From Candidatus Nanopelagicales bacterium (GTDB lineage: Bacteria > Actinomycetota > Actinomycetes > S36-B12 > CAIYMF01), in NCBI GenBank assembly GCA_017848795.1, contig JAFIHG010000017.1, positions 1 through 39,508 on the forward strand: a stretch of 39,508 nt of DNA, read 5' to 3'. Shown in pieces: positions 14,753 through 39,157 of the stretch (the first letter of the stretch is position 1; each line of letters begins with the position of its first letter). Under the pieces are notes generated by a model that worked only from the letters and a program-made list of their open reading frames with translations, did no database searches and had not been told where the DNA came from. Made by a program: the position numbers and the translations under genes.

Positions 14753-15655
14753 GTGACGGAGGACGGTGACGGGCTGCTGGGCGCCACCGACGTACGCCGC
14801 CTCGCAGCGGCGCTCGACCTCCGGCCGACCAAGGCCCGCGGGCAGAACTTCGTCATCGACGCCAACACGATCCGCCGCATCGTCGCTGCTGCCGGGCTGC
14901 TCCGCGACGACGTCGTGCTCGAGGTGGGCCCTGGTCTGGGCAGCCTGACGCTGGGGCTGCTGCCGGCGAGCGCTCACGTCACCGCTGTCGAGATCGACCC
15001 CGCGCTCGCGCGGGCGCTGCCAGCCACGGTCCGCGACCGGCGGCCCGACCTCGCCGACCGCCTCACCGTGCTCGCCGCGGATGCGCTGCGCGTCGTGCAG
15101 TTGCCCGGTCCGGAGCCGACGGCCCTTGTCGCCAACCTCCCGTACAACGTCGCGGTTCCCGTGCTGCTGCACCTGCTCGCGACCTTCCCGTCGATCGAAC
15201 GCGTGCTGGTGATGGTGCAGGCGGAGGTCGCCGACCGGCTCGCCGCCCCGCCCGGCAGCCGCACCTACGGGGTGCCGAGCGTGAAGGCGCGGTGGTACGG
15301 CGAACCGCGGCGCGCGGGCGTCGTCGGGCGCACGGTGTTCTGGCCGGCGCCGAACGTCGACAGCGGCCTCGTCGCGTTGCGGCGTACCGCCCCGCCCCTC
15401 ACCAGCGCGACGCGCGAGGCGGTGTTCGCGGTCGTCGACGCGGCGTTCGGGCAGCGCCGCAAGACGCTGCGCGCGGCACTCGCGGGCTGGGCCGGGTCAC
15501 CGGTCGCCGCCGAGCACGCGCTGCGCGCCGCCGGGATCGACCCGCGTACGCGAGGGGAGCAGCTCTCGATCGCCGACTTCGCCCGCATCGCCGAACAGCG
15601 TCAGGACGGCAAGACGGTCCGCGGCGCCGCGGTCCTGCCGACGGTGGCGCCATGA
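14753..15655 (+). CDS. rsmA (ksgA): 16S rRNA (adenine1518/1519-N6)-dimethyltransferase
   Basis: A 300-residue methyltransferase that dimethylates the two adjacent adenines of 16S helix 45. It has the N-terminal [11 protein letters not shown] substrate-site motif, SAM motif [11 protein letters not shown] at residues 56-66, the catalytic NLPYNV at residues 128-133, and the C-terminal [12 protein letters not shown] helix. GTG 14753 is used because the GTG two bases earlier is followed directly by a stop. The stop overlaps the ispE ATG (ATGA). Confidence 0.96.
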
Positions 15656-16605
15656 GCGGACTGCGCCTCACGCCGGTGTCGACCAGCGTGCCGGTGACCG
15701 TACGGGTGCCGGCGAAGGTGAACCTGCAGCTGTCGGTGGGCCCGCGCCGCCGGGACGGTTATCACAACGTGGTGAGCGTCTTCCACGCCGTCGCCCTCCA
15801 CGACGAGGTCGTCGTCAGCGAGAGTGACACGCCTGGGATCACGCTGCGCGTGGAAGGCGAGGCGGCCGCGGACGTCCCGACCGACGACTCGAACCTGGTC
15901 TGGACGGCGGCGCAGGTCGCGGCACGGGCGACCGGCCGCCGCGCCGACGTGCACATCCTGCTGCGCAAGGCGATCCCCGCGGCGGCCGGGATGGCCGGCG
16001 GCAGCGCCGACGCGGCCGGCACCCTCGTCGCCTGCGACGCACTGTGGGGCACGGGCATGGACCGCAAGCTGCTGCACCGCCTCGCCGCCGGTCTCGGGAG
16101 CGACGTCCCGTTCGCGCTGCACGGCGGTACGGCGGTGGGCACCGGCCGCGGCGAGCGTCTCACCCCCGCCCTCGCCCGCGGACAGTTCCACTGGGTCTTC
16201 GCCTTCGCCGACCGCGGCTTGTCGACCGCCCAGGTCTACCGGGAGTGCGACCGGCTGCGCGGCGACACGGCCGTCCCGCAGCCGCAGGTCAGCGAGGCGC
16301 TCATGAGCGCGTTGCGCTCCGGCGACGCGGCCGCCCTGGGCCGCGCGCTCACCAACGACCTCGAGCGGGCGGCGCTGCACCTGCGCCCGCAGCTCTCGCA
16401 GGTGCTGGAGGTGGGCCGCGACCACGGCGCGCTCGGCGCCGTCGTCTCGGGCAGCGGGCCGACGTGCGCGTTCCTCGTCGCCGACGAGGAGGCGGCGCTC
16501 GACGTCGCCGTGTCCCTCACCGCCTCGGGGGTCTGCCGTACCGTCAAGCGGGCCGCCGGCCCGGTCACCGGGGCGCGCGTCGTCGACGGTACGGGCGCGC
16601 GCTGA
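15652..16605 (+). CDS. ispE: 4-diphosphocytidyl-2-C-methyl-D-erythritol kinase
   Basis: A 317-residue GHMP kinase of the non-mevalonate isoprenoid pathway; it phosphorylates CDP-methylerythritol. It shows [22 protein letters not shown] at the N-terminus, the ATP-binding glycine loop [15 protein letters not shown] (about residues 110-124), the [13 protein letters not shown] segment and the C-terminal [15 protein letters not shown] motif. The start overlaps the ksgA stop, and the next gene begins two bases after its stop, so ksgA-ispE-ABC-F form one transcription unit. Confidence 0.96.
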
Positions 16606-17910
16606 CCATGGCCCACCTGCTCGGGGCGCACGCCCTGCGCGTGGAGTACCCCACGCGCGTGGTGCTCGAGGACGTGACCCTCGGCGTCGACGAGGGCGAC
16701 CGGATCGGCGTGCTGGGGCGCAACGGGGAAGGCAAGTCGACGCTGCTCGGGCTGCTCGCGGGCCGGCTCGAGCCGGACGCGGGCCGCGTCACCTGGCGCG
16801 GCGGGGTACGGATCGGCGTGCTCGACCAGTCCGACACCCTCCCCGACGAGCAGTCCGTCGGCCACGCGATCGTGGGCGAGCGCGCCGCGCACGAGTGGGC
16901 CGGCGACCCGGCCGTCCGGGACGTCATCGCCGGACTGGTGCCCGACCTGCCCTGGGAGGAACGCGTCCGCGACCTCAGCGGCGGCCAGCGCCGCCGGGTG
17001 GCGCTGGCCGCCCTGCTGGTCCACGAGTGGGACGTGCTCGCGCTCGACGAGCCGACCAACCACCTCGACCTGGAGGGCATCGGCTGGCTCGCACGACACC
17101 TCGCACAGCGCTGGCCGCGCGGCGCTGGTGCCCTGCTCGTCGTGTCGCACGACCGCTGGTTCCTCGACGAGGTCGTCACGAGCACGTGGGAGGTCCACGA
17201 CCGGACCGTCGAACCCTTCACCGGCGGCTACGCGGCGTACGTCCTGGCGCGGGTCGAGCGCGACCGGAAGGCGGCGCTCGCGGAATCGAAGCGCCAGAAC
17301 CTGATGCGCAAGGAGCTCGCCTGGCTGCGCCGCGGCGCGCCGGCCCGTACCGCAAAGCCGCGGTTCCGCATCGAGGCGGCGAACCAGCTGATCGCGGACG
17401 TACCGCCGCCGCGCGACCGGGTCGAGCTGTCCCGGCTCGCGACCGCGCGGCTCGGCAAGGACGTCGTCGATCTGTACGGGGCCGGCGTGGCGTACGGCGA
17501 GCGGGAAGTGCTGCGCGACGTCGAGTGGCGGATCGCGCCCGGAGAGCGCACCGCGATCCTGGGCCCCAACGGCGCGGGCAAGTCGACCCTGCTCGGGCTC
17601 ATCGCGGGCACCGTCGAGCCGAGCAGCGGCAAGGTCACGCGTGGCAAGACGGTACGGATCGGCGTGCTCGACCAGCAGTCCCGCGAGCTCACCGGACTGG
17701 GCGGTGAGCGGGTGCGCGATGTGCTCGCGCAGGCGCGCACCAGCTACCTGGTCGACGGCAAGGAGCTCACTCCGGCGCAGCTGCTGGAACGGCTCGGTTT
17801 CGCCCACGCGCACCTCTCGGCCCGGGTGGGCGAGCTCTCCGGCGGGCAACGGAGAAGGCTGCAGCTGCTCCTGGTGCTGCTCGCCGAGCCGAACGTGCTG
17901 CTGCTCGACG

Positions 17911-17917
17911 AGCCCAA
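17911..17917 (+). other. Left host/island junction (probable attL)
   Basis: Homology to ABC-F ends here. The host codons for LDEP read up to GAGCCCA, where the family would continue into ACC-AAC (TN); instead the sequence goes ACACTCAGGAACC. A short dyad follows (GGAACC...GGTTC, 17924-17939). The core size cannot be given without the right end. Confidence 0.75.
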
Positions 17918-17977
17918 CACTCAGGAACCGTATGTGGTTCGGACACCTCCATTCTACCGCTCCGAGGGGCGTTCGTG

Positions 17978-17994
17978 GGGTGCTTGCCGCACCC
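17978..17994. repeat. Small inverted repeat inside the island left end
   Basis: GGGTGC and GCACCC pair around a 5-nt loop about 60 bp from the junction. It may be a recombinase-related site or a weak terminator; its role is unknown. Confidence 0.35.
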
Positions 17995-18061
17995 GCGCCG
18001 CGCGTCGAGTCGCGCGGCCGAGGCATCCTGACCGGAGTGCGGGGAAGGCCGGTGTGCGGTA

Positions 18062-19858
18062 GTGGCTGCGCCGTTGGTGGTGGGGGAAGCCCTGCACTTG
18101 GAGTATCCGACGCGAGTGGTGTTCGACTCGGTGACGGTCGGGGTGGAGGAAGGCGATCGCGTCGGGATCGTGGGCCGCAACGGTGACGGCAAGTCGAGCC
18201 TGCTGGGGATGCTCAGCGGCCTGATCGAGCCGCAGGCGGGCCGGGTGACGCGGCGAGGCGGTGTGCGCTTCGGGGTGCTGTCGCAGTCTGACGACCTCGA
18301 AACCACTGCGACGGTCGGCGGGTCGATCGTCGGTGATCGGCCGGAGCACGAGTGGGCCGGCGACGCCAAGGTCCGCGACGTGATCGGCGGGCTGGTCGCC
18401 GATCTGCCGTGGGAGGCGAGGATCGGCGAGCTGAGCGGCGGGCAGCGCCGCCGGGTCGCGTTGGCCGCGTTGCTGATCGGCGAATGGGATGTCATCGCTC
18501 TAGATGAGCCGACGAACCATCTCGATGTCGAGGGCATCGCCTGGCTGGCCGGCCATCTGCGGAACCGCTGGGCCAAGAACTCGGGCGGACTGCTGGTCGT
18601 GACACACGACCGCTGGTTCCTCGATGAGGTCTGCACCGAGACCTGGGAGGTCCACGACGGGACCGTGGAGCCGTTCGAGGGCGGGTACGCCTCCTACGTG
18701 TTGCAGCGCGTCGAACGGGACCGGATGGCCGCGGCGACGGAGGCGAAGCGGCAGAATCTGATGCGCAAGGAGCTGGCGTGGCTACGCCGCGGAGCACCCG
18801 CCCGCACCTCCAAGCCGAAGTTCCGCATCGACGCAGCGAACCAGCTCATTGAGGACGTGCCGCCGGTGCGCAACCCGATCGAGCTGCAACGCCTCGCCGT
18901 CGTCCGCCTGGGCAAGCAGGTGGTCGACCTGGAAGACGCGGGCGTGCGCTACGGCGACCGCGACGTGTTGCGCGAGGTGACGTGGCGGCTCGCCCCCGGT
19001 GAGCGGACCGGGATACTCGGAGCGAACGGGAGCGGCAAGTCGACGCTGCTCGGCTTGATCGCCGGAACCGTGCAGCCCACGTCGGGCCGGATCAAGACGG
19101 GCAAGACGGTGCGGCTCGGGTTACTGGATCAGCAGTTCTCCCAGCTCGCGGACATCGGCGGTGACCGGGTGCGCGAAGTGCTGGCCCGCACGCAGACGAC
19201 CTTCGCGATCGACGGCAAAGACCTCACGCCGGCGCAACTGCTGGAACGCCTCGGATTCGCCCGCGCACACCTCTCCACGAGGGTCGCCGAGCTGTCGGGC
19301 GGTCAGAAGCGGCGGCTCCAACTGCTGCTCCTGCTGCTGAGCGAACCTAACCTCATCGCTCTCGATGAACCTGCGAACGATGTTGACGCCGACATGCTGG
19401 CCGCGATGGAGGACCTGCTGGACTCGTGGCCGGGAACGCTCGTCGTCGTCTCGCACGACCGCTACATGCTGGAACGGGTCACCGACCAGCAGTACGCCAT
19501 CCTCGACGGACGCTTGCGGCACCTGCCCGGCGGAGTGGACGAGTACCTGCGGCTGAGGCGCGAACAGCCGACATCGCGCACGAGTAGTCCGATCACCCCG
19601 ACGACCGCCGACGCGGGGCCGGGCGCGTCCGGGCTCTCCGGCTCCGAACGACGCACCGCGCAGAAGGAAGTCGCCTCGATCGACCGCCGTCTCGACAAGC
19701 TCCACGCTGAGGTGAAGAACCTGCACCAGCGGACGGCCGACCACGACCAGGGCGACTACGAGGGTCTACAGAGGCTCGCAGACAACCTTCGCGCCGTGGA
19801 GGACGAGACGGCAGAACTCGAAGAACGCTGGCTGGAACTCTCCGACCTGATCGACTAG
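18062..19858 (+). CDS. Complete ABC-F (Uup-like) ATPase carried by the island
   Basis: A 598-residue soluble twin-ATPase protein. ABC-F proteins act on ribosomes, rescuing stalls or tuning translation; they are not transporters. Domain 1 has GRNGDGKSS, LSGGQRRRVA, LDEPTNHLDVEG and THDR. The linker is KRQNLMRKELAWLRRGAP. Domain 2 has GANGSGKST, LSGGQKRRLQ, LDEPANDVDADM and SHDRYMLER. A C-terminal coiled coil (from SGSERRTAQKEVASIDRRLDKL) is of the Uup type. By eye it is about 70% identical to the truncated host copy next door. The start GTG 18062 shares its G with the stop TAG of the upstream frame, and its N-terminus aligns with the host protein. It ends by overlapping the convergent small membrane gene. 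Confidence 0.93.
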   Translation: MAAPLVVGEALHLEYPTRVVFDSVTVGVEEGDRVGIVGRNGDGKSSLLGMLSGLIEPQAGRVTRRGGVRFGVLSQSDDLETTATVGGSIVGDRPEHEWAGDAKVRDVIGGLVADLPWEARIGELSGGQRRRVALAALLIGEWDVIALDEPTNHLDVEGIAWLAGHLRNRWAKNSGGLLVVTHDRWFLDEVCTETWEVHDGTVEPFEGGYASYVLQRVERDRMAAATEAKRQNLMRKELAWLRRGAPARTSKPKFRIDAANQLIEDVPPVRNPIELQRLAVVRLGKQVVDLEDAGVRYGDRDVLREVTWRLAPGERTGILGANGSGKSTLLGLIAGTVQPTSGRIKTGKTVRLGLLDQQFSQLADIGGDRVREVLARTQTTFAIDGKDLTPAQLLERLGFARAHLSTRVAELSGGQKRRLQLLLLLLSEPNLIALDEPANDVDADMLAAMEDLLDSWPGTLVVVSHDRYMLERVTDQQYAILDGRLRHLPGGVDEYLRLRREQPTSRTSSPITPTTADAGPGASGLSGSERRTAQKEVASIDRRLDKLHAEVKNLHQRTADHDQGDYEGLQRLADNLRAVEDETAELEERWLELSDLID

Positions 19859-20361: not shown

Positions 20362-20433
20362 TGACAGAGGGAACCCCGGCGGCAGATGGGCGTGTACCTC
20401 GTCGGTGACCTTGGAGCGGAAGGGACACCGATC

Positions 20434-21438
20434 ATGGCGACGTTGGCGGAGCAGGTGCAGGGTGAGCGGATGGCGCGGGTCGCGCTGTCGATGATCGCCG
20501 AACCGAACGACCCGACCACCGGGTACGTCCTGGCCCGTCACGGCGGGGTCGAGACGCTGTGGCTGATGGAGTCCGACGACGAGGTGTCTGGCCTGGCCCG
20601 CGCCGACGTACTGATGTGGCGCGAACGACTGGCTGTGCGTGTCACACCTGGCCTGCTGGATCAGGTAGCGCAGGCGGAGCGGCACGGCTTCGGCACGCTC
20701 ATCCCGGCCGACAAGGAATGGCCCGCCGGGCTGAACGACTTGGGCGAGCGTGCCCCCTACCTGCTGTGGACGCGGGGCGCGGCCTCGTTCCTGACAATGC
20801 CGCTGAGCGATCGGGCCACGATCACCGGCTCACGCGCCGCGACCTCCTACGGCGAGCAGGTCACGGGCGAGCTGGCGACGGGTCTGGCCGATGAGGAACG
20901 GGTCGTCGTCTCCGGTGGCGCATACGGGATCGAAGGGGCCGCGCACAAGAGCGTGCTCGCCGCGAGCGGTCAGACGATCGCGGTCCTGGCCGGCGGGCTG
21001 GACCGTCTCTATCCTGCCGGGCACAACGAGCTGTTGAACCGGATCGGGGATGTCGGGCTGCTGGTCAGCGAGCTGCCACCCGGAGCGACACCGACCAGAC
21101 ACAGATTCTTGGCCCGCAACCGGCTGCTCGCGGCGCTCTCGGGTGCGACCGTGATCCCTGAGGCCGGTCCCCGATCCGGGTCGATGACCACGGTCATCGC
21201 CGCACGCGAACTCAGCCGAGGCGTCGGCGCGGTGCCCGGCCCGGTGACCAGCGTCGCGAGCGCGGGGCCGAACGAACTCATCAAGCAGGGTCTCGCGTCG
21301 CTCGTCACTCAGCCCAGCGACGTGATCGCCTTGCTCGACGCCGACCCGAACCCACGGCGGGCCGTGACCCGGCCTGAGGCTGGGCGCGAGTTCGGGCACC
21401 GACACCCGTCACAGGGCACGCCCGGACGCTCTCTCTGA
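20434..21438 (+). CDS. dprA: DprA/Smf-family DNA-processing protein
   Basis: A 334-residue protein with the DprA Rossmann-like domain. Characteristic runs are TITGSRAATSYGEQV, VVSGGAYGIEGAAHKSVL, TIAVLAGGLDRLYPAGH, SELPPGATPTRHRFLARNRL (conserved FxxRNR), GSMTTVIAAREL and GAVPGPVTS. Chromosomal DprA loads RecA on incoming single-stranded DNA. In a conjugative element it could protect or process the transferred strand (inference). ATG 20434 is used because GGAAGGG lies about eight bases upstream; an upstream in-frame ATG at 20386 lacks a convincing site. The gene is unlikely to be the host's main dprA, which normally sits elsewhere beside topA/rnhB-type neighbours. Confidence 0.88.
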   Translation: MATLAEQVQGERMARVALSMIAEPNDPTTGYVLARHGGVETLWLMESDDEVSGLARADVLMWRERLAVRVTPGLLDQVAQAERHGFGTLIPADKEWPAGLNDLGERAPYLLWTRGAASFLTMPLSDRATITGSRAATSYGEQVTGELATGLADEERVVVSGGAYGIEGAAHKSVLAASGQTIAVLAGGLDRLYPAGHNELLNRIGDVGLLVSELPPGATPTRHRFLARNRLLAALSGATVIPEAGPRSGSMTTVIAARELSRGVGAVPGPVTSVASAGPNELIKQGLASLVTQPSDVIALLDADPNPRRAVTRPEAGREFGHRHPSQGTPGRSL

Positions 21439-21461: not shown

Positions 21462-24400
21462 TCACAAGCTCGGTGCGGGGCGAGCCGCGGCGCTCTGCCG
21501 CGCGGGCTCGGTCGTTGTGCCCTCGATGGTGGCGGCTTGGGCGCGGTTGAGGGCGGCGCGGGCGCGGATGGCGTCGATCTTCTGGCTGGTGCTCTCTGGC
21601 GCCGCCCCGAGCGGGGTTCGGTCGTCGGTGATGCCGTAGCGGTCGCGGTAGGCGGCGACGGTGCGGGCAGCACGCCACCACACCGCCTTCTGCTTCTTGC
21701 CCCTCGGAGCCGTGCCGAGGTCGGCCGTCCACGGTTCCTTCTCGGTGAGAGCGGTACGGAGTATGGCGTCGGCGCGGGCCTCGATCAGCTCGCGGCGCTC
21801 GTCCAGTGCTTGCCGCATGTCGCCTGTCATCTGCCCGCCGGCGTGCGGGATCAGTCCGACGATCAGTCTCGGGGGTTTGCGGGTTCGGCCTGATCCGGCG
21901 GGCCGGGCGGTGGCGCGCGCGACGCGGGCGTGGAGGACGGAGGCGATGTCGTCGGCGTCGTCCAGGCTCCGCGCGGAGACCAGCCGCGGGAGCAGCGTGT
22001 CGAGGTCGTGGTGGTTGGCTTCGGCGTGGCGCAGTTCGGCCGACAGCGCGCCGTAGGCGTCGGAGGCGAGCACGTCTTCGATCTGCTCGGCGGTGAGGCC
22101 GGAGGCTTGCAGGAGGGTGGCCCAGCGGTCGTGCTGGGCGGCTTGGGCGATGGTGTCGTACTCGGCCGCGAGCTGGGCGATCGAGCCCCAGCGGTCTTGC
22201 TCGGCGGTGATCGTCTCGTGCGCGGACAGCTCGGCGCCGATGTGCTGGAGCACTCCGTAGAGGATCGAGCGGGCGGTGACGTTCGGGTTGTCGCCGGGAT
22301 GCGGCACCGCGTGTTCGGCGTCCTCTCGGTCGACGGCGACGTAGGCGTGGTTGCTGTGGGCGCCGCGGGTCATGGAGACGTAGAAGTTCTCCCGCGTTGT
22401 GGTGGCGGTGGCGACCGCGTGCGCGGTGTCGGTGGTGACGCCCTGGGCGCGGTGCGCGGTGATCGCGTAGCCGAGTTCCAGGTGCTCGGCCACGTAGTCG
22501 GCCGGCAGGACGATCCCGCCTCCGAACCGGCGCCCGGCCGGGCGGATGCTGACCGACCCGTCCTCCCGGACCCCGGTGACGATCCAGCGGGAGCCGTTGC
22601 GGACCCAGGTTCGGCCGTTGCGGAGCCGTCGGTCGTTCTCGCGGGTGATGACCAGATCGCCCTCCGAGACCGCGGTGCCGTCGTGCAGGGCGAGTTCGCG
22701 GGTGGGGTTCACGGTGCCGTCGATGATCCGATCCGCTCGCGCTCTGGCGTTCAGTTCGGTGACGGTTGCCTGGGTCTCGGTGACCAGGATCGACGCGCGC
22801 CCGGCGGCAAGATCGGCCCGCCATGCGGTGTAGGCGGCGTCGATCATCGCTTCCTCGTCGCCCCCGGTGATCCGGCCGTGCTCGATCAGGGTGTCGATCG
22901 CCTCGGCGCGGCCGTGGCGGAGCTGGAGCGAGGTGGTCTTCTCCCACTCGTTCGTGAAGCGGTGCAGATCGGTCAGCTCCGGGGCGTCGTCGCGGGCGTG
23001 CACGAGCATGGCGAAACTGCCGCCGGCGCCCGGTGATTGGAGCTGGCCCCAGTCTCCGACCAGGAGGACTTTCGCGCCGGCCTTCTCGGCTTCATGGGTG
23101 AGCCGATCCAACGACATCGTGCCGGCCAGTGAGGCTTCGTCGATGATGACGAGCTGCCCGGCCGTGAACGTGGTCCCGTACATGAGGTGGTTCTGCCACC
23201 ACTTCGCTGTGTTCTCCGTGGCGATGCCGAGGTCATCCGCGAGGACCTGCGCGGCGACCGCCGAGGGGGCGAGCCCGATCACGGAGCCGGTGTCGTGCTC
23301 CTTCTCCCACGCCCGCCGGAGGCCGTTCATCGCCGTCGTCTTACCGGCCCCGGCCGGGCCGACCAGCACGTCCACGACCCGGCCGGAGACCGCGATCGCG
23401 GCCAGGGCCGCGGCCTGATCCTCGCCGAGCACCCGGCCGCGTGCGTCGGGCTTGCGGGCGATCCTCTCGACCGTCTCCAATGGCACGGTCGGCCCGGTCG
23501 TGGCGGCGGCTCGCGTCAGGAGGCGGTCTTCGGCGGCCAGCAGGACTTCGGATGAGAACAGGGTCGAGGCGTGCGGCCGGAATCGGGAGGTGCCGTCCGT
23601 CCGGCGGAACTGCAACGGGCTGGACGCCAGCTCCGGCGGCGTCAGCCGCAGCGAAGCGTGCTCGGCGGCATCGACCACGAGCCCGGTGATCGCCTCCCGG
23701 TCTTGGATGCTGGCGAACCGCCACCCCATCAACTGCCGGGATGTTTCGGCGTGCAGGTTCCAGCGGGTCCAGGTCGAACGCTTCTCACCGACCGTCTCCA
23801 TCACGGTCTGCCCGACCTCGCGCACCACATCCAGCGGCACGTCATCGGCGCGCAGCACCCGCCGCGGCGCCTCCGCGCTGGCCGTGGTGAGCGTGCGTGC
23901 CCAGCCGTTCGCGTCGCGTCGCAGCACCCGGCTGGCGCGCTGCCGCCACTCGCGGGTGAGGTCGGCCAGCGACCGGACCTGCTTCTCCGGCCTCGTGGCG
24001 AGCGTGGCCTGCGCCCGGAGTTTCAGCACCGTTCGGGCGGAGGGCTGCCGGCCGTGCTTGGCGACGTACTCGGCGATGAGGCGGTCTTTCTCGGTCTCGA
24101 TGTGCCGGGAGCGGGTGGAGAACTCGGTCACCAGCTCGTCGGGCACGCCTTCGATTTCCCAGGCCGGGTTCCGATCCCTGCCTCGCTCGCGCGCCTCCCA
24201 CTCCACGCCGAGGACGCGGGTGAGCTGGTCGGCCAGGGTGGCGTTGTAGAGCTCGGAGACGGCGACGACCACCGCGTGCATCGGCCGGCCGGCGAGGGTC
24301 CGCCAGCGGCCGTCCTGCACGGTCAGGACTTTGTTGCTGATGACGACGTGCGTGTGCAACTGAGGGTCGCCCGCGCGGCTGTCGTAGTGATCGAACGCCG

Positions 24401-25028
24401 CCGCTACGACGCCGGCGACATCGACGTGCGCAACCGCGCCGTCCGGGCCGGTTGCACCGACACGGGTTGCCGCAACCTCGCGTTCGAGGAACGCAACCAG
24501 TTCTGCAACCGCCGCGTGATGGGCGTCCGCGATCAGAGCTTGCGTGCCGGCGTCCGCAACCGCCCAGATCGTGGAGACCGACTTCGGCACGGAGAACGTG
24601 AAGTCGTAGCCCGCGACCGCGCGGCGGGTGCCGCGCCCGGCTTCCTCCGCCTCGATCACAGCCACCTCGCGCGCCCGAGCGGACGGCCCCAGCTCGGGAT
24701 CGAGGGCGTCGACGCGCTGCCTGACACGCTCCGTGATCGACGCGAACTGCTGGTAGGCGCGGCCCAGTGGATCGCCCGTGATCGGGTCATGGCCCATCCC
24801 GATCAACAGCGCGAGCTGGGCTTCTGAGACCTGCGCTCCCTCGACCAGCTCGCCGTGCCCGAGACGGCCCAGCCCGGAGCCCATCCAGAAGCCCGGCGGT
24901 GTTCCTGCCTCCGCGTAGTAGCGGGTCAGCGGCGTGCTCAGGCTCCGGTCGCCGTCGCCGGCGGCGACGGACTTCAACAGGTACTTGTACCCATCGCCTG
25001 CGCTCATCACGCGCATCGAGACCGTCAC
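21462..25028 (-). CDS. MobF-family relaxase/helicase (TrwC/TraI type)
   Basis: A 1188-residue conjugative nickase-helicase. The N-terminal third is a TrwC relaxase domain: GYKYLLKSVAAGD, YDFTFSVPKSVS (about residues 140-151), and the metal-binding LHTHVVISNK (near residue 222). The middle is a superfamily-1 helicase, with Walker A GPAGAGKTTAM near residue 556, Walker B VIIDEAS, GDWGQLQSPG (motif III), and the late YAITAHRAQGVT and YVSMTRG motifs. The C-terminal region is basic and of unknown role. It would nick at oriT, bind the 5' end and unwind the strand for transfer. GTG 25028 is the start: AGGAG is eight bases upstream, whereas the longer frame has no ribosome binding site and runs through palindromes. 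Confidence 0.93.
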   Translation of the reverse strand: MTVSMRVMSAGDGYKYLLKSVAAGDGDRSLSTPLTRYYAEAGTPPGFWMGSGLGRLGHGELVEGAQVSEAQLALLIGMGHDPITGDPLGRAYQQFASITERVRQRVDALDPELGPSARAREVAVIEAEEAGRGTRRAVAGYDFTFSVPKSVSTIWAVADAGTQALIADAHHAAVAELVAFLEREVAATRVGATGPDGAVAHVDVAGVVAAAFDHYDSRAGDPQLHTHVVISNKVLTVQDGRWRTLAGRPMHAVVVAVSELYNATLADQLTRVLGVEWEARERGRDRNPAWEIEGVPDELVTEFSTRSRHIETEKDRLIAEYVAKHGRQPSARTVLKLRAQATLATRPEKQVRSLADLTREWRQRASRVLRRDANGWARTLTTASAEAPRRVLRADDVPLDVVREVGQTVMETVGEKRSTWTRWNLHAETSRQLMGWRFASIQDREAITGLVVDAAEHASLRLTPPELASSPLQFRRTDGTSRFRPHASTLFSSEVLLAAEDRLLTRAAATTGPTVPLETVERIARKPDARGRVLGEDQAAALAAIAVSGRVVDVLVGPAGAGKTTAMNGLRRAWEKEHDTGSVIGLAPSAVAAQVLADDLGIATENTAKWWQNHLMYGTTFTAGQLVIIDEASLAGTMSLDRLTHEAEKAGAKVLLVGDWGQLQSPGAGGSFAMLVHARDDAPELTDLHRFTNEWEKTTSLQLRHGRAEAIDTLIEHGRITGGDEEAMIDAAYTAWRADLAAGRASILVTETQATVTELNARARADRIIDGTVNPTRELALHDGTAVSEGDLVITRENDRRLRNGRTWVRNGSRWIVTGVREDGSVSIRPAGRRFGGGIVLPADYVAEHLELGYAITAHRAQGVTTDTAHAVATATTTRENFYVSMTRGAHSNHAYVAVDREDAEHAVPHPGDNPNVTARSILYGVLQHIGAELSAHETITAEQDRWGSIAQLAAEYDTIAQAAQHDRWATLLQASGLTAEQIEDVLASDAYGALSAELRHAEANHHDLDTLLPRLVSARSLDDADDIASVLHARVARATARPAGSGRTRKPPRLIVGLIPHAGGQMTGDMRQALDERRELIEARADAILRTALTEKEPWTADLGTAPRGKKQKAVWWRAARTVAAYRDRYGITDDRTPLGAAPESTSQKIDAIRARAALNRAQAATIEGTTTEPARQSAAARPAPSL

Positions 25029-25350
25029 CTGGTCTGCTCCTTCCGCCGCTGTACGGAGGGCAGGTGAGCCCGCGAGCCCGGTCGCATCTGATGCGACTCG
25101 GGACGGCTCGCGCCTCTTCTGAAAGACGTGTGATGGCTCGGGAAGCCGGCGGGCTGAGCACTCTGGCGCCGGCGCCAGAGTCGCGGATTCGGGAGCACCG
25201 GGGTGGTGCGCCAAAGTGCGGGTCGCAGCATCCGCGACGGCGAGGCGTAGCGGCGATGGTTCGGGGGGTCGTGCACCTGGTCGCTGACCAGCCCGGCGGT
25301 GACCTCATGCGTGAAGTCCGACCGGGGATCACCCGTCAGCCGGAGCCCTC
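25029..25350. other. Candidate oriT / control region with three dyads
   Basis: This 322-bp gap between the divergent relaxase and methyltransferase genes contains three inverted repeats: 25081-25097 (arms GTCGCATC/GATGCGAC, 1-nt centre), 25160-25181 (perfect 22-bp palindrome, half-site ACTCTGGCGCC) and 25277-25291 (arms CTGGTC/GACCAG, 3-nt loop). MobF origins of transfer usually lie beside the relaxase gene and carry such dyads near the nick site. The same dyads could be operators for the two divergent promoters. No nic sequence is assigned. Confidence 0.5.
25160..25181. repeat. Perfect 22-bp palindrome upstream of the relaxase
   Basis: The half-site ACTCTGGCGCC is followed directly by its exact reverse complement, with no spacer. 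It lies 132 bp upstream of the relaxase start and 170 bp upstream of the methyltransferase. It is either an oriT-associated dyad or a dimeric repressor site. Confidence 0.85.
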
Positions 25351-26502
25351 ATGCACGACCCTCACGACAGGACTCGCCCGCTCAGGGTCGGGTCGCTGTT
25401 CTCCGGGTACGGCGGGCTCGACCTCGCCGTCGAACACGCCTTGGATGCCGAGACGATCTGGTTCTCCGAGAACAACGAACACGTCTCGCGTATCTTCGCC
25501 CACCACTGGCCCGGCGCCCCCAACCTGGGCGACATCACCACCATCGACTGGCGGGCGGTGCCCCCGGTCGACGTGCTCTGCGGAGGCTTCCCCTGCCAGG
25601 ACGTCTCGACCGTGGGCAAGCGCGCCGGCCTCGCGCCCGGCACCCGCTCCGGGCTCTGGTCGTACATGGCCGCCGCGATCGAGACGCTGCAACCCCAGCT
25701 CGTCGTCATCGAGAACGTGCGCGGGCTGCTGTCGTCTCCCGCCGTCCGCGCACCCCTGGAAGGAGATGACGATGCGCAACGCAACCCCAACCACGCAACC
25801 CCCGGCGATGCAACCCTTCGCGACCTGGAATCCGACCCGTGGGGTCTGGGAGACCTCGCAGCTCGACCTCTCCGGGCAGCCGGCGCCGTACTCGGCGATC
25901 TGGCCGACCTCGGGATGGATGCGCAATGGGTCGGCCTACCAGCGTCCCTTGTCGGCGCTCCTCACCCAAGGCTTCGCATCTTCATCACCGCCCATCGCAA
26001 GAGCGTTGTTCAGGACTCCCCTCGCCACGGACTCGACTCGCGGCGGCGAGTCACTGGAACAGGTGCGGGCACGGAGAGGGACGATCGCACTCTCGCATCA
26101 GATCATCGACCTGGCACTCAACGGACCGAGTGGCTTGCCCACCAAGAGCAGCGAACCGGAGATGCTGTGGTCCCTGATCGAGGACATCTTCACCGCTGGG
26201 GACGCTACGGCCACGCGATCGCACAGTGGGAACACATCATGGGAAGACCGGCCCCCGCGCCGGCACTCCTGATTGGCGACACCGCGCCACGCCCCGCACC
26301 GGAGTTTGTGGAATGGCTCATGGGCCTCCCCGCTGGCTGGGTCACCGCTCCGACGCATCGACTGACGGCAAACCAACAGCTCACAGCACTCGGCAATGGG
26401 GTGCTACCTCAACAGGCGGTGCGCGCCCTTGGCATTCTTCTCACATCCAGAGCAACGACGAACGTCAGCGCCAATCTTGTAGGTCACGACCAGAGTATCT
26501 GA
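25351..26502 (+). CDS. DNA (cytosine-5)-methyltransferase
   Basis: A 383-residue C5-cytosine methyltransferase. Motif I is VGSLFSGYGGLDLAVE (residues 13-28). Motif IV is GGFPCQDVS with catalytic Cys82. Motif VI is IENVRGLL with Glu121. Motif VIII appears as VGAPHPRLRIFITA. Motifs IX-X appear as LTALGNGVLPQQAVRAL near residue 350. The region between VIII and IX, expected to read the target, is unusual: its codons have only about 50% G/C at third positions, and a second open frame overlaps it. No restriction enzyme gene is adjacent, so it is probably an orphan enzyme that protects the element against host restriction (inference). The start ATG 25351 has GGAG five bases upstream. Confidence 0.9.
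   Translation: MHDPHDRTRPLRVGSLFSGYGGLDLAVEHALDAETIWFSENNEHVSRIFAHHWPGAPNLGDITTIDWRAVPPVDVLCGGFPCQDVSTVGKRAGLAPGTRSGLWSYMAAAIETLQPQLVVIENVRGLLSSPAVRAPLEGDDDAQRNPNHATPGDATLRDLESDPWGLGDLAARPLRAAGAVLGDLADLGMDAQWVGLPASLVGAPHPRLRIFITAHRKSVVQDSPRHGLDSRRRVTGTGAGTERDDRTLASDHRPGTQRTEWLAHQEQRTGDAVVPDRGHLHRWGRYGHAIAQWEHIMGRPAPAPALLIGDTAPRPAPEFVEWLMGLPAGWVTAPTHRLTANQQLTALGNGVLPQQAVRALGILLTSRATTNVSANLVGHDQSI
25772..26272 (+). CDS. Nested 166-residue frame inside the methyltransferase gene (+1 frame)
   Basis: An open frame lies wholly within the methyltransferase gene in the +1 frame. Its ATG is six bases after GGAAGGAG (25758-25765). The predicted protein has ordered-looking segments: FATWNPTRGVWETSQLDL, IWPTSGWMRNGSAYQRP, LFRTPLATDSTRGGESL and IALSHQIIDLAL. 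These resemble the W-x-TSG-M/W-x-x-NG-x-AY and PTP-type proteins found beside or within DNA methyltransferase genes of phages. Hand counting 26006-26191 gives about 80% G/C at third positions in this frame, against about 50% in the methyltransferase frame. It may be a separate accessory or specificity protein, or the remnant of a target-recognition region now read in another frame. Confidence 0.55.
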   Translation: MRNATPTTQPPAMQPFATWNPTRGVWETSQLDLSGQPAPYSAIWPTSGWMRNGSAYQRPLSALLTQGFASSSPPIARALFRTPLATDSTRGGESLEQVRARRGTIALSHQIIDLALNGPSGLPTKSSEPEMLWSLIEDIFTAGDATATRSHSGNTSWEDRPPRRHS

Positions 26503-26513
26503 ACTGTCTTCCG

Positions 26514-27869
26514 CTAGCTGCCGCTGTCGGCATCGCGTTCTATCAGCATGGCGGTGAGGGCCGCTGCGACTTCGGAGAGGACGAGTTCTCCGGTGTTGGC
26601 GTCGTAATCGAAGAGTTCGCCGTAGCGACCCCAGTCGATGGCGATGTCGAGCTGTTTCTCGGTGTCCTCGGCGTTGTAGCCCCTGCGAAGCAGATCGCGG
26701 AAGAAGTCGTCGCGCAGGGCACCGCCGTCGCTGTTCTGCAGAGCCTTCACGATCGTTGCTACGAGGGGTGCATGTTCGACGGCGAGGGTGGCGAAGACCT
26801 CTTTAGAGCGCAGGATGTCGGCGGTGTACCAGGATCGTCCGGTTTCGGTGAGGAATGCTTGGGCGCCCTCGACTTCCAGAAGTCCGAGCATTTGAGCGGC
26901 ATCGACCAGGGGTAGCAGGTCATCGACCTGGAAGGAGAGTTCGTCGGCGAGGTCGGGCAAGTCGGCTTGCCCACCGTGGGCGTAGACGATTTCGACCAGG
27001 CCGGCGAGTCCGCCGACGCTGGCGTCCGGCAGCGGGTGGGTCAGGGGTCCAGGGGTGGCGGCGCGTTCGGCCGCGGACTTCTCGTCGCGGCCGGTGAGGA
27101 TGGCGTAGAGCCGATCGACGGCAGCCTCGAAAGTGGGACTGCGGCGGTCGCGGGGTCGGGGCAGGAGGATTGGGACCTCGGCCTTGATGTGGCCGGGGTT
27201 GGAGCCGAGCACAAGCACCCGGTCGGCCAGTAGCACGGCTTCCTCGATGTTGTGGGTCACGATGCAGATGCACTTGGTCGGGAAGTCCGGCCGCGCCCAC
27301 AAGGAGATGAGCTCGCCGCGCAGGTTCTCGCTGGTGAGCACGTCCAGAGCCGAGAAGGGCTCGTCCATCATGAGCACGTCGGGCTGGAGGACGAGCGCAC
27401 GGGCGAAACCGACCCTCTGCCGCATGCCGCCGGACAGTTCGCGCGGGTAGGCGGTCTCGAAGCCGTCAAGCCCGATCTGGTCGATAGCTTCCAGCGCGAG
27501 CTGGTGGCGTTCTTTCTCGGGGACGCCCGCGGCGCGCAGTCCAAGCTCGACGTTGTCTTGCACGGTGAGCCAGGGCATGAGCGCGAAGGACTGGAACACC
27601 ATCGCCGCGCCTGGGTTGGCGCCGTTGAGCGCTTTCCCGCGGTAGCGGACGTCGCCGCTGGTCGGGGCGATGAGCCCGGCGAGAGTGCGCAGCAGCGTGG
27701 ACTTGCCGGAGCCGGACTTGCCCAGCAGCGCCACGACCTCGCCCTCGTGCAGGGTCACGGTCACGTCGTCCAGGACGTGCAGGGTCGAGCCATCGGCCGA
27801 CGGGAACGACTTCGAGACGTGCTCGGCCTCGATCAGCGCGGTGCGCGTCTGCGCGGTGGGTGCGGCCAT
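26514..27869 (-). CDS. ABC transporter ATPase with C-terminal AAA-associated domain
   Basis: A 451-residue protein. Residues 1 to about 255 form an ABC ATPase of the nitrate/sulfonate/taurine type: Walker A GKSGSGKST, Q-loop QSFALMPW, LSGGMRQR, Walker B VLMMDEPFSALD and H-switch THN. Residues 285-445 match the C-terminal AAA-associated domain seen in a subgroup of these ATPases (GLAGLVEIVYAHGGQADLPDLA through IDWGRYGELFDYD). Its partner is the fused permease encoded just upstream on the same strand (34-bp gap). The substrate is not known; the neighbours point to a metal ion. The extra domain may sense ligand or regulate the ATPase. Confidence 0.9.
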   Translation of the reverse strand: MAAPTAQTRTALIEAEHVSKSFPSADGSTLHVLDDVTVTLHEGEVVALLGKSGSGKSTLLRTLAGLIAPTSGDVRYRGKALNGANPGAAMVFQSFALMPWLTVQDNVELGLRAAGVPEKERHQLALEAIDQIGLDGFETAYPRELSGGMRQRVGFARALVLQPDVLMMDEPFSALDVLTSENLRGELISLWARPDFPTKCICIVTHNIEEAVLLADRVLVLGSNPGHIKAEVPILLPRPRDRRSPTFEAAVDRLYAILTGRDEKSAAERAATPGPLTHPLPDASVGGLAGLVEIVYAHGGQADLPDLADELSFQVDDLLPLVDAAQMLGLLEVEGAQAFLTETGRSWYTADILRSKEVFATLAVEHAPLVATIVKALQNSDGGALRDDFFRDLLRRGYNAEDTEKQLDIAIDWGRYGELFDYDANTGELVLSEVAAALTAMLIERDADSGS

Positions 27870-27903
27870 GACAGTTCACGTCCTTTCACGGGTTGGTGCG
27901 GGT

Positions 27904-29646
<1,743 letters not shown>

Positions 29647-29689
29647 CACGGTCTCCTGAGGGTCGCGGAAAGGGCCGCCGCTGACAACC

Positions 29690-29755
29690 TCAGTGCATCA
29701 GCGTGGCGTGGGGGCGAGGTGAACGGTGGGCGGGTCTGGCAGGGTCGGAACTCAT
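29690..29755 (-). CDS. Possible leader peptide of the ABC-transporter operon (21 residues)
   Basis: ATG 29755 lies eight bases after a near-perfect Shine-Dalgarno (AGGAGGTGA on the complement), and the frame ends at TGA 29690, 43 bp before the permease start. The peptide starts MSSDPARPAHRSPRPHA and is rich in proline, arginine and histidine. Its position and proline content recall attenuator peptides of Mg2+ transport genes such as Salmonella mgtL; the sequence is not homologous. Translation of this leader could control the operon (inference). Confidence 0.5.
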   Translation of the reverse strand: MSSDPARPAHRSPRPHATLMH

Positions 29756-29802
29756 GCCGTTCACCTCCTCGGTCGGCGGGCTGATGGCTATCGCTACACA
29801 GC

Positions 29803-29831
29803 ATAGTCAACGTTCAATGGCTTGCGCATAT
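29803..29831. promoter_or_regulatory. Putative ArsR-type operator in the arsR/ABC divergent region
   Basis: ATAGTCAACG (29803-29812) and CTTGCGCATAT (29821-29831) recur upstream of the mgtA-type gene at 34044-34065 with closer spacing. On the minus strand the first element overlaps a possible -10 (TATGCT). The site lies between arsR and the ABC operon, where an autoregulating ArsR protein would bind. Confidence 0.5.
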
Positions 29832-29855
29832 CTCAGATCGTTGGATGATAGAGGG

Positions 29856-30251
29856 ATGGAACCGCATACGGAGCCCCGACCTGTGACCGATGCGCAACTG
29901 ACGGCGGCGGCAGCGACGTTCGACATGCTGTCCACCCCGAGTCGGCTTCACCTCGTCTGGTTGCTGGCTGCGGGCGAGTACGACGTGTCCACGCTGGCAG
30001 AGCAGTCGGGGACGAACGTCCCAGCCGCGAGCCAACACCTCGCGAAGCTGCGTGCGGCCGGGATCGTCGCCGCCAGACGCGAGGGCCGCAGGCAGCTCTA
30101 CCGCGTGGAGGACCCGCACATCCTGACGGTCATCGAGCAGATGTTCTCCCACATCGCGCCGGACGGAACCCTCGCCGGCTCGGCCGACCAGCGGCGCCCG
30201 CCCCGGCTGCCGAGGTTCGAGCCTGCCGGTGCGGTCAGTCGACGGGACTGA
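29856..30251 (+). CDS. ArsR/SmtB-family transcriptional repressor (metal sensor type)
   Basis: A winged-helix DNA-binding protein of about 131 residues. It has TFDMLSTPSRLHLVWLLAAGEYDVSTLAE, the recognition helix VPAASQHLAKLRAAGIV, the wing ARREGRRQLYRV and a final helix DPHILTVIEQMFSHIAP. It lacks the CVC-type alpha-3 arsenic/cadmium site. Asp and His residues in the last helix (DPHILTVIEQMFSH) could form an alpha-5-type site as in zinc, nickel or cobalt sensors (inference). ATG 29856 is the best supported start, although the ribosome binding site is poor; an upstream ATG at 29818 lies inside the putative operator. It overlaps the end of mgtC by 17 bp. Confidence 0.85.
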   Translation: MEPHTEPRPVTDAQLTAAAATFDMLSTPSRLHLVWLLAAGEYDVSTLAEQSGTNVPAASQHLAKLRAAGIVAARREGRRQLYRVEDPHILTVIEQMFSHIAPDGTLAGSADQRRPPRLPRFEPAGAVSRRD

Positions 30252-30951
30252 TGTCCTGAGCTGTCCACCGCACGCCGAGCACTTCCGGGGTGTGAATCAC
30301 GTCTGCGATCGCCAGCTCGATCTGATGGTCGTCACGCTCCGGGCTACTCACAGTGGCGGTGATGACCACGAGGTCGTCGGGAAGGTCGGTCGCGGCGACG
30401 GACTGCACGGTGAGGTCGGGACGGTGGACCGCGTCGAAGACGATGGCACGGACCTCAACCTCATGCTCGCGGGCGCAGCGGACCTCAAAGGTGTACTCGA
30501 CCTCGGTGTTCTTCTCCCAGCCGGTTGAGCCGGGCCGGCGATCGAGCATTCGCCCCACCGGGCGCAGCAGGACGTTTGCTGCGATCACGACAAAGGTGCC
30601 TGCGGCCGCGACCCAGACGAGGCCGCCTCCGGCGAGCGCGCCGACCGCGGCGGAGGCCCAAAGTGTGGCGGCGGTGTTCAGCCCGGAGATCGACGCACCC
30701 TGCTTCATGATGACTCCGGCGCCGAGGAAGCCGATCCCTGAGACGATCTGTGCGGCGACTCGGGTCGGATCGGCGTCCGGGCCGTTGAAGCTGTAGGCGC
30801 CCATGATCACGAACAGCGTCGCGCCCAGGCTCACCAGTGCGTTTGTGCGCACTCCGGCCGTACGGGCGCGCCATTGACGCTCAAATCCGATGAGGGTGCC
30901 AAGTCCGACGCCGGCCGCGATGCGGATGACGATATCGATCCACTCGATCAT
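30235..30951 (-). CDS. mgtC: MgtC/SapB-family membrane protein
   Basis: A 238-residue protein. The N-terminal MgtC domain has four to five helices: IRIAAGVGLGTLIGFERQWR, AGVRTNALVSLGATLF, VSGIGFLGAGVIMK and GLNTAATLWASAAVGALAG, all family signatures. It is followed by a cytoplasmic regulatory domain of about 90 residues. MgtC proteins are linked to growth at low Mg2+ and can affect ATP synthase or phosphate balance; they are not proven Mg2+ channels. ATG 30951 has AAGGAG six bases upstream. It follows the P-type ATPase gene by 110 bp on the same strand, so mgtA-mgtC cotranscription is likely. Confidence 0.93.
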   Translation of the reverse strand: MIEWIDIVIRIAAGVGLGTLIGFERQWRARTAGVRTNALVSLGATLFVIMGAYSFNGPDADPTRVAAQIVSGIGFLGAGVIMKQGASISGLNTAATLWASAAVGALAGGGLVWVAAAGTFVVIAANVLLRPVGRMLDRRPGSTGWEKNTEVEYTFEVRCAREHEVEVRAIVFDAVHRPDLTVQSVAATDLPDDLVVITATVSSPERDDHQIELAIADVIHTPEVLGVRWTAQDISPVD

Positions 30952-31061
30952 GTAGGTCTCCTTCGGGTGTCCGTATGAGCGGCGTGGCGCGCCTCGTGGG
31001 CTGCGGAGGCAGGAGTGTGGGGTGCGCCGGGTCTTCTCGGACGCACCCCACACGTTGAATG

Positions 31062-33797: not shown

Positions 33798-33893
33798 GAG
33801 AGTGTCTCCCAACTGATTCGGACGCGACGAAACCGCCGCGCGCCGAGAATCGGCAAGCGCATGCGGGTCAGAGTCGCGGAGGGGTCGTGGTTG

Positions 33894-35764: not shown

Positions 35765-35984
35765 TGTGCGCATGTAACCCGGCGATATCCGCAGGATTAG
35801 CCAGATCACACGCTCAACCGACGCCCGATCCCGTAGGCCAGTAGGGACTCGTCGGGTTCATCGCGGAGCCTGGCGGTCCGAAGCATCGCTCCGTCGTCCG
35901 TCTCGTCTCCTGATCCGCCCGGCGTACCTCGCGGTCGCACGGTCGCTCCCTCTCGGAGTGGCCCAGGCGGAGGGAGGTCAGGCG

Positions 35985-37082
35985 ATGGCTGCGAACGAGG
36001 ACAAGCAGGCGGCGCGGCAGGCGACGCTCGACGCGCTGGAAGAGCGCATTGTGCGCTCGGTCGAGGAACTGGTCTCGGGCGATGACTGGCGTCGTGCGAT
36101 CGAGTTCGCCGCGAGGTTCCGTACCCGCTCGTTCAACAACACGCTCTTGATCTGGGCGCAGCACTTGGAAGCCTACGAACAGGGCCGGGTGCCGACGCCG
36201 ACACCGACCTGGGTGGCGGGGTTCAAGGACTGGCGGAAGATGGGCCGCTGGCCGGAGAAGGACGGCGGGTATCGGATTCGCGGTCCGGTCAAGGCGAGGT
36301 TCGCATCGGCCAGCCCGCGCGATCCGGCGTCGTGGCGGCGGTTGGGGTCATGGGAGAAGCCGCGGCCCGGCGAGGTCGTGCGTCGCCGGATCGTCAGTGT
36401 CGTCCCGGCCTATGTGTGGGACGTGTCGAGGACGCACGGAGACCCGCTTCCCGAGCTGCCACGTCCGAGGCTACTGGAAGGCGAAGCCCCGGCCGGGCTG
36501 TGGGAGGGCCTGGCCGAGCAGGCGGAGTCGCTGGGGTTCGAGGTGCTGCGGATGCCGCGCGACCGCATGGAGCGGGGCGCGAACGGCTGCACGGATTTCG
36601 AGACCCGTCAGGTGATGGTCTGCGCGGACATGGACCCGGCCGCGCAGGTCAAGACCCTCGCGCACGAACTGGCGCATGTCCGGCTGGATGGCCCGAACCA
36701 GCAGGACGACGCCCGCGAACATCGCGGGATCAGCGAGGTGCGGGCCGAGTCGGTCGCGCTGATGATCGCCGCCGCGCACGGCATGGACACCAGCGACTAC
36801 ACGATCCCATATGTCGCCGGATGGGCGGCCAACGTGGACGGGAAAGACCCCGTGGCGGTCGTGCGCGCCACGGGCGAGCAGGTGCGCAGCACCGCATTCG
36901 ACATCCTCGACAAGCTCGACACCGCACAGCTCGGGAACGGGAACCCGCTGTCCCTGCGCGTGGACGGCCCGGAGCACACGTCGCAGGCCCAGGAGACGCC
37001 AGAGCAGGCCGCACGCCAGGTCGAGCCGCTGCCGGAACGGGAAACGCCGGCGACTCCGGTCGTCTCGGGACGGGGCCTGTGA
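35985..37082 (+). CDS. ArdC-like antirestriction protein with zincin domain
   Basis: A 365-residue protein. The N-terminal ~110 residues resemble the ArdC ssDNA-binding domain (SFNNTLLIWAQHLE, then VAGFKDWRKMGRWPEKDGG). A metallopeptidase-like domain follows, with HELAH at residues 227-231 and a distal Glu255 in EVRAESVAL. ArdC proteins coat incoming single-stranded DNA and block restriction during plasmid entry; the zincin part is needed in some homologues. ATG 35985 has GGGAGG seven bases upstream. Its stop overlaps the next start (TGATG), so it leads a four- or five-gene operon. Confidence 0.88.
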   Translation: MAANEDKQAARQATLDALEERIVRSVEELVSGDDWRRAIEFAARFRTRSFNNTLLIWAQHLEAYEQGRVPTPTPTWVAGFKDWRKMGRWPEKDGGYRIRGPVKARFASASPRDPASWRRLGSWEKPRPGEVVRRRIVSVVPAYVWDVSRTHGDPLPELPRPRLLEGEAPAGLWEGLAEQAESLGFEVLRMPRDRMERGANGCTDFETRQVMVCADMDPAAQVKTLAHELAHVRLDGPNQQDDAREHRGISEVRAESVALMIAAAHGMDTSDYTIPYVAGWAANVDGKDPVAVVRATGEQVRSTAFDILDKLDTAQLGNGNPLSLRVDGPEHTSQAQETPEQAARQVEPLPERETPATPVVSGRGL

Positions 37083-38703: not shown

Positions 38704-39113
38704 ACGACGAGGACCGGATGCGGGAGCAGCATCGCCAGCACCCCGAGCCCGAGCCGCCGCCCCCTGCGCGGAACGATCCGAACCCGGCCGAGACGACCGA
38801 CGCAGCGGGGACGCCGGATGCAGTCAAGGAAGCTGCACTTTCCCGCAAGGCCGCGAAGGAGAAGCTGGCGCGGGTGCGGGGCCGGGGCGTGGATTGGGTG
38901 CGCCCGACCGACCTGCTCGCCCAAGGCGGCGGCACGCTGTCCCGCCGGGGCATCGACCGTACCGCCGAGATGAACCGGCACGTCCGCGCCCCGATCGAGA
39001 AGGGCGCGCGCTGGGTCGCCGAGCGAGCCAAGCGGCTGCCGCCCCTGAGCGCGTTCGGCCGTCGCGGCGGCGCCGAGCAGGGACCGCGCCGCTCCGGGGT
39101 CGGGATGAGGTAG
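38700..39113 (+). CDS. Hypothetical protein of actinobacterial conjugative elements
   Basis: A 137-residue, highly charged soluble protein with no transmembrane segment. The first 45 residues are Glu/Pro-rich and probably disordered. A conserved-looking core follows (GRGVDWVRPTDLLAQGG, then GIDRTAEMNRHV), and the tail is basic. The start overlaps the DUF2637 stop (ATGA). The family is not recognised beyond its operon association. Confidence 0.75.
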   Translation: MNDEDRMREQHRQHPEPEPPPPARNDPNPAETTDAAGTPDAVKEAALSRKAAKEKLARVRGRGVDWVRPTDLLAQGGGTLSRRGIDRTAEMNRHVRAPIEKGARWVAERAKRLPPLSAFGRRGGAEQGPRRSGVGMR

Positions 39114-39157
39114 CCGGGTGGTGATGAGTCGTGGGCGCCCCTTCCGTCACAGCGAGA

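Follow-up and report, generated by a model that had tools for sequence, protein, structure and literature searches.

The window of this study is contig C47 of the genome of Candidatus Nanopelagicales bacterium (assembly GCA_017848795.1; 3.445 Mb in 57 contigs, 98.3% complete, 0.6% contamination), a stretch of 39,508 nucleotides (JAFIHG010000017.1). It holds the left part of a mobile element of about 36.7 kb that has entered a host ABC-F ATPase gene at the codons of its second Walker B motif. The host gene is split, and the element carries a complete second ABC-F gene close to its left end. We consider it likely that this is an insert-and-rescue integrative and conjugative element (ICE), whose substitute gene is recoded at the attachment site and translationally coupled to the gene that it replaces.

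The host genes lie in the order ksgA, ispE, ABC-F (Table 1). The ABC-F frame is intact through LLLDE, the core dinucleotide GA being at 17910-17911, and foreign sequence starts at 17912. The interruption described by the original prediction, which was made from the sequence alone, is thus real, and so is the full-length 598-residue ABC-F that it placed some 150 bp further on: the GTG start lies 150 bp after the cut, and the identity to the split host gene, estimated by eye at roughly 70%, was measured at 71%. The nearest other ABC-F of this genome, besides the two pieces of the cut gene, is 36% identical. A matching ABC-F is present in 112 of 118 genomes of the class at an E-value of 1e-150. 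No tRNA gene was detected in the window, and no Rfam family reached its gathering score there.

The original prediction expected the lost 3′ portion of the host gene at the far end of the island and named its absence there as refuting; it was found there, beside a recombinase gene. The window and contig C8 share 85 bases, at the end of the former and the start of the latter, the end of C8 overlaps the start of contig C40 by 141 bp (C40:1-141), and the 3′ part of the host ABC-F occupies C40:142-619; the element therefore consists of positions 17912-39508 of the window plus C8. The recombinase, a protein of 511 amino acids encoded on the minus strand (C8:13584-15119), starts about 45 bases from the junction. 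Its resolvase and recombinase domains (PF00239 and PF07508), together with a two-base core and palindromic att arms, are those of a large serine recombinase. An integrase, att sites that match at the two ends, a MobF relaxase and a TraG/VirD4-type coupling protein (C8:10649-12808; PF12696, PF02534) mark the element as a probable ICE, for which transfer is predicted. C8 ends exactly at the crossover GA (L018:140-141), a break compatible with a minority of circular or empty molecules in the sample; the left junction, however, is unbroken.

Because the assembly has 57 contigs and the right junction can be followed only across overlapping ones, we considered that an assembly or binning artefact might have fused a plasmid to the chromosome. 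There is hardly any chance of this: the left junction lies within one contig, the two attP arms pair with each other although each comes from a different end of the element, and in two related genomes (G018 and G026) the cut gene, substitute, recombinase and 3′ piece are found on single contigs, the cut ends being about 72 and 55 kb apart. Two adjacent ABC-F genes could also recall a tandem duplication of the host gene with decay of one copy, which the original prediction had named among the findings that would overturn it. This explanation, already refuted by the far junction, which places the 3′ part of the cut gene about 36.7 kb away and past the recombinase gene, can be set aside with near certainty, since the two ABC-F genes also belong to different supported clades.

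To define the attachment sites, we joined the two ends of each of 10 elements to reconstruct attP (8 distinct attP), and the corresponding pair of host flanks to reconstruct attB. The attP is nearly palindromic about GA in all ten, with arms pairing at 15-18 of 23 positions, and at no more than 9 of 23 once the centre is shifted by 1-3 bases. As the arms originate from opposite ends of the element, this pairing fixes both the boundaries and the crossover, and the Walker B codons do serve as the attachment site, as had been proposed. A crossover at CC, suggested by the reading of attL as GAG and of attR as GAA in the analysed element, was rejected, the attP arms being symmetric about GA.

A recombinase scan using one genome per species gave 13 loci besides the analysed genome, 12 of them, all actinobacterial, at 74-98% identity and one at 50%. 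At ten of these loci (L022, L023, L025-L029, L031, L033 and L034) the recombinase is flanked by the same ABC-F 3′ end, split at the same codon, so that the split cannot be a matter of chance. Beyond the scope of the original prediction, related recombinases also enter Walker B of other ABC genes, and one apparent non-ABC gene. The insertion lies inside a different ABC ATPase gene in Actinotalea caeni (L030) and in the first Walker B of another ABC-F in Auritidibacter (L032, the recombinase of 50% identity); in Tamaricihabitans (L024) it lies in a gene encoding LLDE that by eye, without a family search, is not an ABC gene. A further recombinase (G381, 49% identical) also adjoins an ABC-F-like 3′ end. 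Since the recombinases of 49-50% identity (L101 and L032) likewise adjoin a Walker B, in other genes of the ABC-F or an ABC-F-like type, a wider Walker-B-targeting clade perhaps exists. The recombinase is rare: it was detected in 1 of 17 genomes of the family (E-value 1e-40), 1 of 166 of the order (1e-120), 2 of 394 of the class (1e-100) and 1 of 396 of the phylum (1e-100), in overlapping samples that each include the analysed genome. No match was obtained in plasmids at an E-value of 1e-60 and none was confirmed in viral contigs. Phage recombinases matched in 64 records, all below 60% identity and, among the 20 of these 64 matches listed, at 37.1% or less.

A search covering the genomes of these 13 loci and the analysed one detected a full carried ABC-F in 10 elements (analysed genome, G017, G018, G019, G021, G022, G023, G025, G026 and G028), so the original prediction of a family of elements holds. 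In several carriers the pieces are on separate contigs linked through contig ends. The carried gene was not found in G020, where the contig ends at its start codon, in G027, a distant member whose left end was not located, or in G024 and G029. In the last two, the element is flanked by a full, host-type, unaltered ABC-F on its left and by an additional 3′ piece on its right (identical at 522 of 525 aligned bases in G024 and, in G029, at 201 of 216 within the stretch that aligns best), and the recombinase gene of G029 is frameshifted. These two elements look decayed or repaired. Restoration of the C-terminus by the element was rejected for both, since the full genes are host-type and unaltered and the second 3′ piece lies past the element. 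The full host-type ABC-F of Microbacterium lacticum (L073:12279-14114) is directly followed by sequence that by eye is transposase-like; the element there measures about 31 kb, and the 3′ piece (L072:1217-1741) is 522/525 identical to the full gene.

The ratio of nonsynonymous to synonymous substitution rates (dN/dS, calculated by hand from dN and dS) of the carried genes is 0.07-0.13 in 7 of 7 within-lineage pairs, indicating that they are under constraint. Such genes could be ordinary cargo, for instance for antibiotic target protection, whose position beside a cut gene is incidental. ABC-F proteins include ribosome-protection factors, the NCBIfam model ribo_prot_ABC_F scores 333 bits, and the elements of G025 and G019 carry an ABC-F although the host gene is intact. 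We nevertheless find this explanation improbable. The 333 bits, the best score of an ABC-F protection family, compare with a cut-off of 380, and no such family reached its cut-off among the best 25 of 198 matches; the sole family above cut-off among the matches listed was a haem exporter ATPase model, which we take as unspecific. Moreover, the tree places the carried genes among natives, of which those with ispE upstream include L102-L107, and the altered site and frame-matched left end described below have no evident meaning for cargo.

In the ABC-F tree, computed without the altered patch (46 rows), the carried genes form three supported (starred) clades among natives, referred to as lineages A, B and C. 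A single clade of all ten carried copies was rejected by the approximately unbiased (AU) test (p-AU 5e-37; 42 rows, without four long branches). The recombinase tree shows the same three groups (14 rows, without the frameshifted L034; labels taken from the ABC-F tree), whereas the nine split host genes are scattered among natives, with 8 changes (47 rows, without eight distant ones). The clades of carried genes therefore match those of the recombinases and not the hosts: the gene moves together with its recombinase and has been acquired repeatedly. L113 was excluded from the ABC-F trees and AU test, and also from the codon-surprise profile, the attB matrix and the window-size and synonymous-difference comparisons presented below.

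The substitute and the split host gene of the analysed genome sit in different starred clades, the latter grouping with lineage C carried copies and the natives L104 and L105 (47-row tree). This split ABC-F is just 51% identical to that of a congener, compared with 75% for ispE, so the locus had probably already been replaced by a foreign gene before the element arrived. Its attachment site is unaltered, and nothing therefore shows that the earlier replacement was made by an element. A native gene behind ispE in G263 (L102) is sister to the lineage B copies and its Walker B site is partly atypical (rank 52 of 584 in the analysis below). No recombinase match was found within 14 kb around this locus, which may represent a donor type or a domesticated copy.

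The left end of the elements has a layout that the original prediction had not described. In the analysed element the host frame enters a linker of 48 codons and stops, and a whole gene then follows, so that the end of the host gene is not restored. In all 11 left ends, the host frame continues past the cut for 42-55 codons without a stop; the stop that then follows overlaps the next start in nine and ends five bases before it in two. The overlap with the start of the substitute is of one base, TAGTG in the analysed element and G023 and TGATG in G017, G018, G019, G021 and G028. In G020 and G026, identical here, the stop ends five bases before ATG. G022 and G025 have an ATPase gene inserted ahead of the substitute, and here the stop overlaps the start of that gene (ATGA). 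These inserted genes are related to each other (L081:3916-6231, minus strand, and L132 upstream of 10780, minus strand); that of G022 matches the defence candidate PDC-S06 with 907 bits, and a host-driven left end may thus express defence genes too. A stop located within -8 to +3 of the start arises in 2.5-5.9% of shuffles per element (tested in 5 of the 11 left ends, from lineages not fully independent). Linker length varies among lineages but the phase of the start was the same in the five checked. The frame is equal even at the odd sites of G019 and G025, because the target encodes LDE or FDE in frame.

The substitute also differs from native genes at the position equivalent to attB, a feature likewise absent from the original prediction. 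The second Walker B of most natives seen reads CTSGACGARCCSACSAACGAC or near it; the carried copies have varied mixtures of CCT, GAT, GAA, CTA, GCT and GTT. Over 13 codons at the site, the G+C content of third codon positions (GC3) falls short of the gene mean by 0.26 in 10 carried copies and exceeds it by 0.05 in 26 natives (Mann-Whitney U test, p 4e-6, an overstated value as the rows are related). This comparison omitted 24 of 51 loci without a motif match, chiefly of a more distant ABC-F type, 11 of which were restored in the 46-row tree. The mean codon-surprise profile of the ten carried copies reaches its maximum, 3.01 bits, at residue 436, the crossover codon (gene mean 1.51, SD 0.36, 584 windows; native mean at residue 436, 0.76). 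When windows of 15 codons are used, lineages A, B and C have the site at rank 4, 1 and 3 of 584, as compared with ranks of 52 to 584 in 25 native genes. Scores against an attB matrix are 50-66 for occupied ABC-F sites (n=9, leave-one-out), 39-67 for natives (n=25), 22.8-38.2 for carried copies (n=10) and 18-45 for the native first Walker B. The altered sequence would spare the element's own copy from its recombinase and would bar re-entry of the host through the carried gene.

Several results weigh against the proposed rescue by a protected, coupled substitute. The signal at the altered site is weaker in single copies and at other window sizes than in the mean peak: just 4 of the 10 carried copies have their most atypical window at the site, which ranks 3, 7, 11, 15, 26 and 40 of 584 in the rest, and in lineages A, B and C it ranks 7, 8 and 7 of 588 with 11-codon windows and 12, 8 and 18 of 578 with 21-codon windows. 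For synonymous difference to the nearest natives, it stands out in lineage A (rank 15 of 578), less so in C (rank 77) and not in B (rank 242), and the native L102 is itself part-way altered. Letters and residues common to the altered patches (CCT, NLI/NLM) suggest that these are possibly not independent events, and the alterations may have passed between lineages. At the left end, an open linker is found in 25-51% of shuffles (7 of the 11 left ends tested) and is unremarkable alone. The hosts G025 and G019 keep their own ABC-F, so that rescue is unneeded there. Lastly, the site occupied by the element of G019, which was not captured by the attR pattern and was entered by hand, scores -0.8, far under the altered sites, in a host gene that by eye is not ABC. 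The matrix therefore does not predict use and a lower similarity is no proof of immunity, which we did not accept from the score alone.

An alternative is that rescue is real and that the altered codons stem from donor base composition, from slow translation in this stretch or from gene conversion that spread the patch, with no selection for immunity. We regard it as unlikely, though it deserves serious attention. GC3 is lower throughout in lineage C (0.73-0.83), lineage B is unexceptional compared with its nearest native, L102, the first Walker B of the copy in the analysed element is atypical too (rank 13 of 584), and the G019 site is used in spite of its score. However, lineages A and B have an overall GC3 of 0.84-0.87 that drops at the site, and the ranks obtained with 15-codon windows are outside the range of the natives.

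In the insert-and-rescue mechanism that we favour, the large serine recombinase would recombine attP with DNA encoding L-D-E-P in ABC ATPase genes, chiefly at the second-domain Walker B of the ABC-F behind ispE. Integration splits this gene, and a complete ABC-F is supplied about 140-155 bp inside the left end, in the same direction (two elements have an extra gene between). A coding motif as target sets the frame in which the element is entered. The left end is matched to this frame, and ribosomes translating the cut gene should halt at or beside the next start and could re-initiate there. In the analysed genome the substitute is the sole ABC-F of its type left and would therefore take over the function, presumably avoiding the fitness cost of the insertion, as first suggested in the original prediction. 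Loss of the left end should then be costly to the host, and precise excision would regenerate the native gene. More tentatively, and with slightly less than an even chance of being right in full, these may be natural self-immune insert-and-rescue elements, in which a coding-motif target gives a known frame and the left end couples a recoded substitute to it, recurrent gene capture leading to xenologous replacement of a translation factor across actinobacteria.

Known restoring islands supply an end of the gene that they enter (PMC5704250). Like the present element, such islands and prophages, in tRNA genes or at the 3′ ends of housekeeping genes, are site-specific within a conserved gene whose function is kept. 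Instead of a gene end, the present element provides a complete second gene with its own start and leaves the native gene broken. Serine-recombinase integrative and mobilizable elements found in rumA and other genes share with it the type of recombinase, an internal site and a disrupted gene. They disrupt genes that are dispensable for the host, and no substitute gene is described for them in the part of PMC5704250 used, unlike what we observe here. More generally, integrating elements are held to avoid harm through dispensable genes, tRNA genes or rebuilt gene ends (in part PMC5704250). Many related large serine recombinases that share a single conserved gene site have likewise been described (Durrant 2022, PMC10083194); the targets named include a magnesium chelatase and a prolyl isomerase, and 'ABC transporter', 'ATP-binding cassette' and 'Walker' do not occur in the main text of that article. 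Disruption of a conserved gene combined with rescue by a recoded copy is also the principle of engineered gene drives of the cleave-and-rescue or home-and-rescue type (PMC7951863, PMC7968924). These drives are nuclease-based and work in insects, whereas the present element is a natural bacterial one with a recombinase, and the likeness is one of analogy only. The RUSTI/BreLI islands of cheese actinobacteria are ICEs of Brevibacterium and relatives thought to transfer single-stranded DNA (PMC6579920). An identity with RUSTI was rejected, because RUSTI encodes a XerD-family tyrosine recombinase (PMC5526665) and the present element a large serine recombinase. We recognised no report of an element carrying a whole altered substitute for its target in the literature covered, which comprised few subscription papers and no supplements.

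If the proposed mechanism is true, these elements invade the catalytic codons of a conserved gene and repay the host with a whole altered copy, frame-matched to the broken one. It would show a mobile element making itself needed and a route for the horizontal replacement of a conserved translation gene, and would offer a recombinase with an in-frame coding target.

Table 1. Features of the host locus and of the integrated element in the 39,508-nucleotide window.
Feature	Positions	Strand	Evidence and remarks
ksgA (rsmA), host operon	14753..15655	+	TIGR00755, 236 bits (cut-off 171)
ispE, host operon	15652..16605	+	TIGR00154 and NF002870, both above cut-off
Host ABC-F gene, 5′ part	16608..17911	+	split in second Walker B (LLLDE)
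Predicted crossover dinucleotide GA of attL	17910..17911	+	centre of attP palindrome
Right arm of attP (P′), first element bases	17912..17941	+	16/23 arm pairs at GA centre, 8 or fewer when shifted
In-frame linker extending host frame	17916..18062	+	stop TAG 18060-18062 overlaps GTG start (TAGTG)
Complete element-borne ABC-F gene	18062..19858	+	598 amino acids, GTG start
attB-equivalent of substitute	19340..19399	+	atypical codons; E of DEP at 19367-19369
DprA-family gene	20386..21438	+	PF02481; TIGR00732, 194 bits (cut-off 191)
MobF/TrwC relaxase-helicase	21462..25214	-	PF08751; NF041492, 251 bits (cut-off 100); start codon uncertain
C5-cytosine DNA methylase	25351..26502	+	PF00145
Cargo block	26514..33812		ABC transporter ATPase and permease, ArsR-type regulator, MgtC, MgtA-type P-ATPase
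ArdC-N/IrrE-like protein, possible anti-restriction	35958..37082	+	PF08401; PF06114 barely above cut-off
Bifunctional primase-polymerase	37082..37996	+	PF09250; exact start not fixed
Rest of element in window	37997..39508	+	continues in C8: coupling protein, SCO6880-type gene, serine recombinase; then attR C40:140-141

The original prediction had mobile-element genes running to the end of the window. This is correct for the relaxase, DprA, ArdC-like and primase-polymerase genes, but the same region also contains cargo, including genes for MgtA, MgtC and an ABC transporter. The five genes of this cargo block are 74-91% identical to their counterparts in G026 (coverage 80-100%). The block is thus common to the element of the analysed genome and to the lineage C element of G026 in spite of their different recombinase lineages, as in modular cargo. 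In C8, the gene at 6144-7388 belongs to the SCO6880 family (374 bits, cut-off 60), whereas that at 8907-10463 has no Pfam match, its top NCBIfam match being a weak one to a VirB4-like ATPase (57 bits, cut-off 325). Finally, a full ABC-F 67% identical to the substitute is located on a 413-kb plasmid record of Tsukamurella (NZ_LR134465.1:61126-62931).

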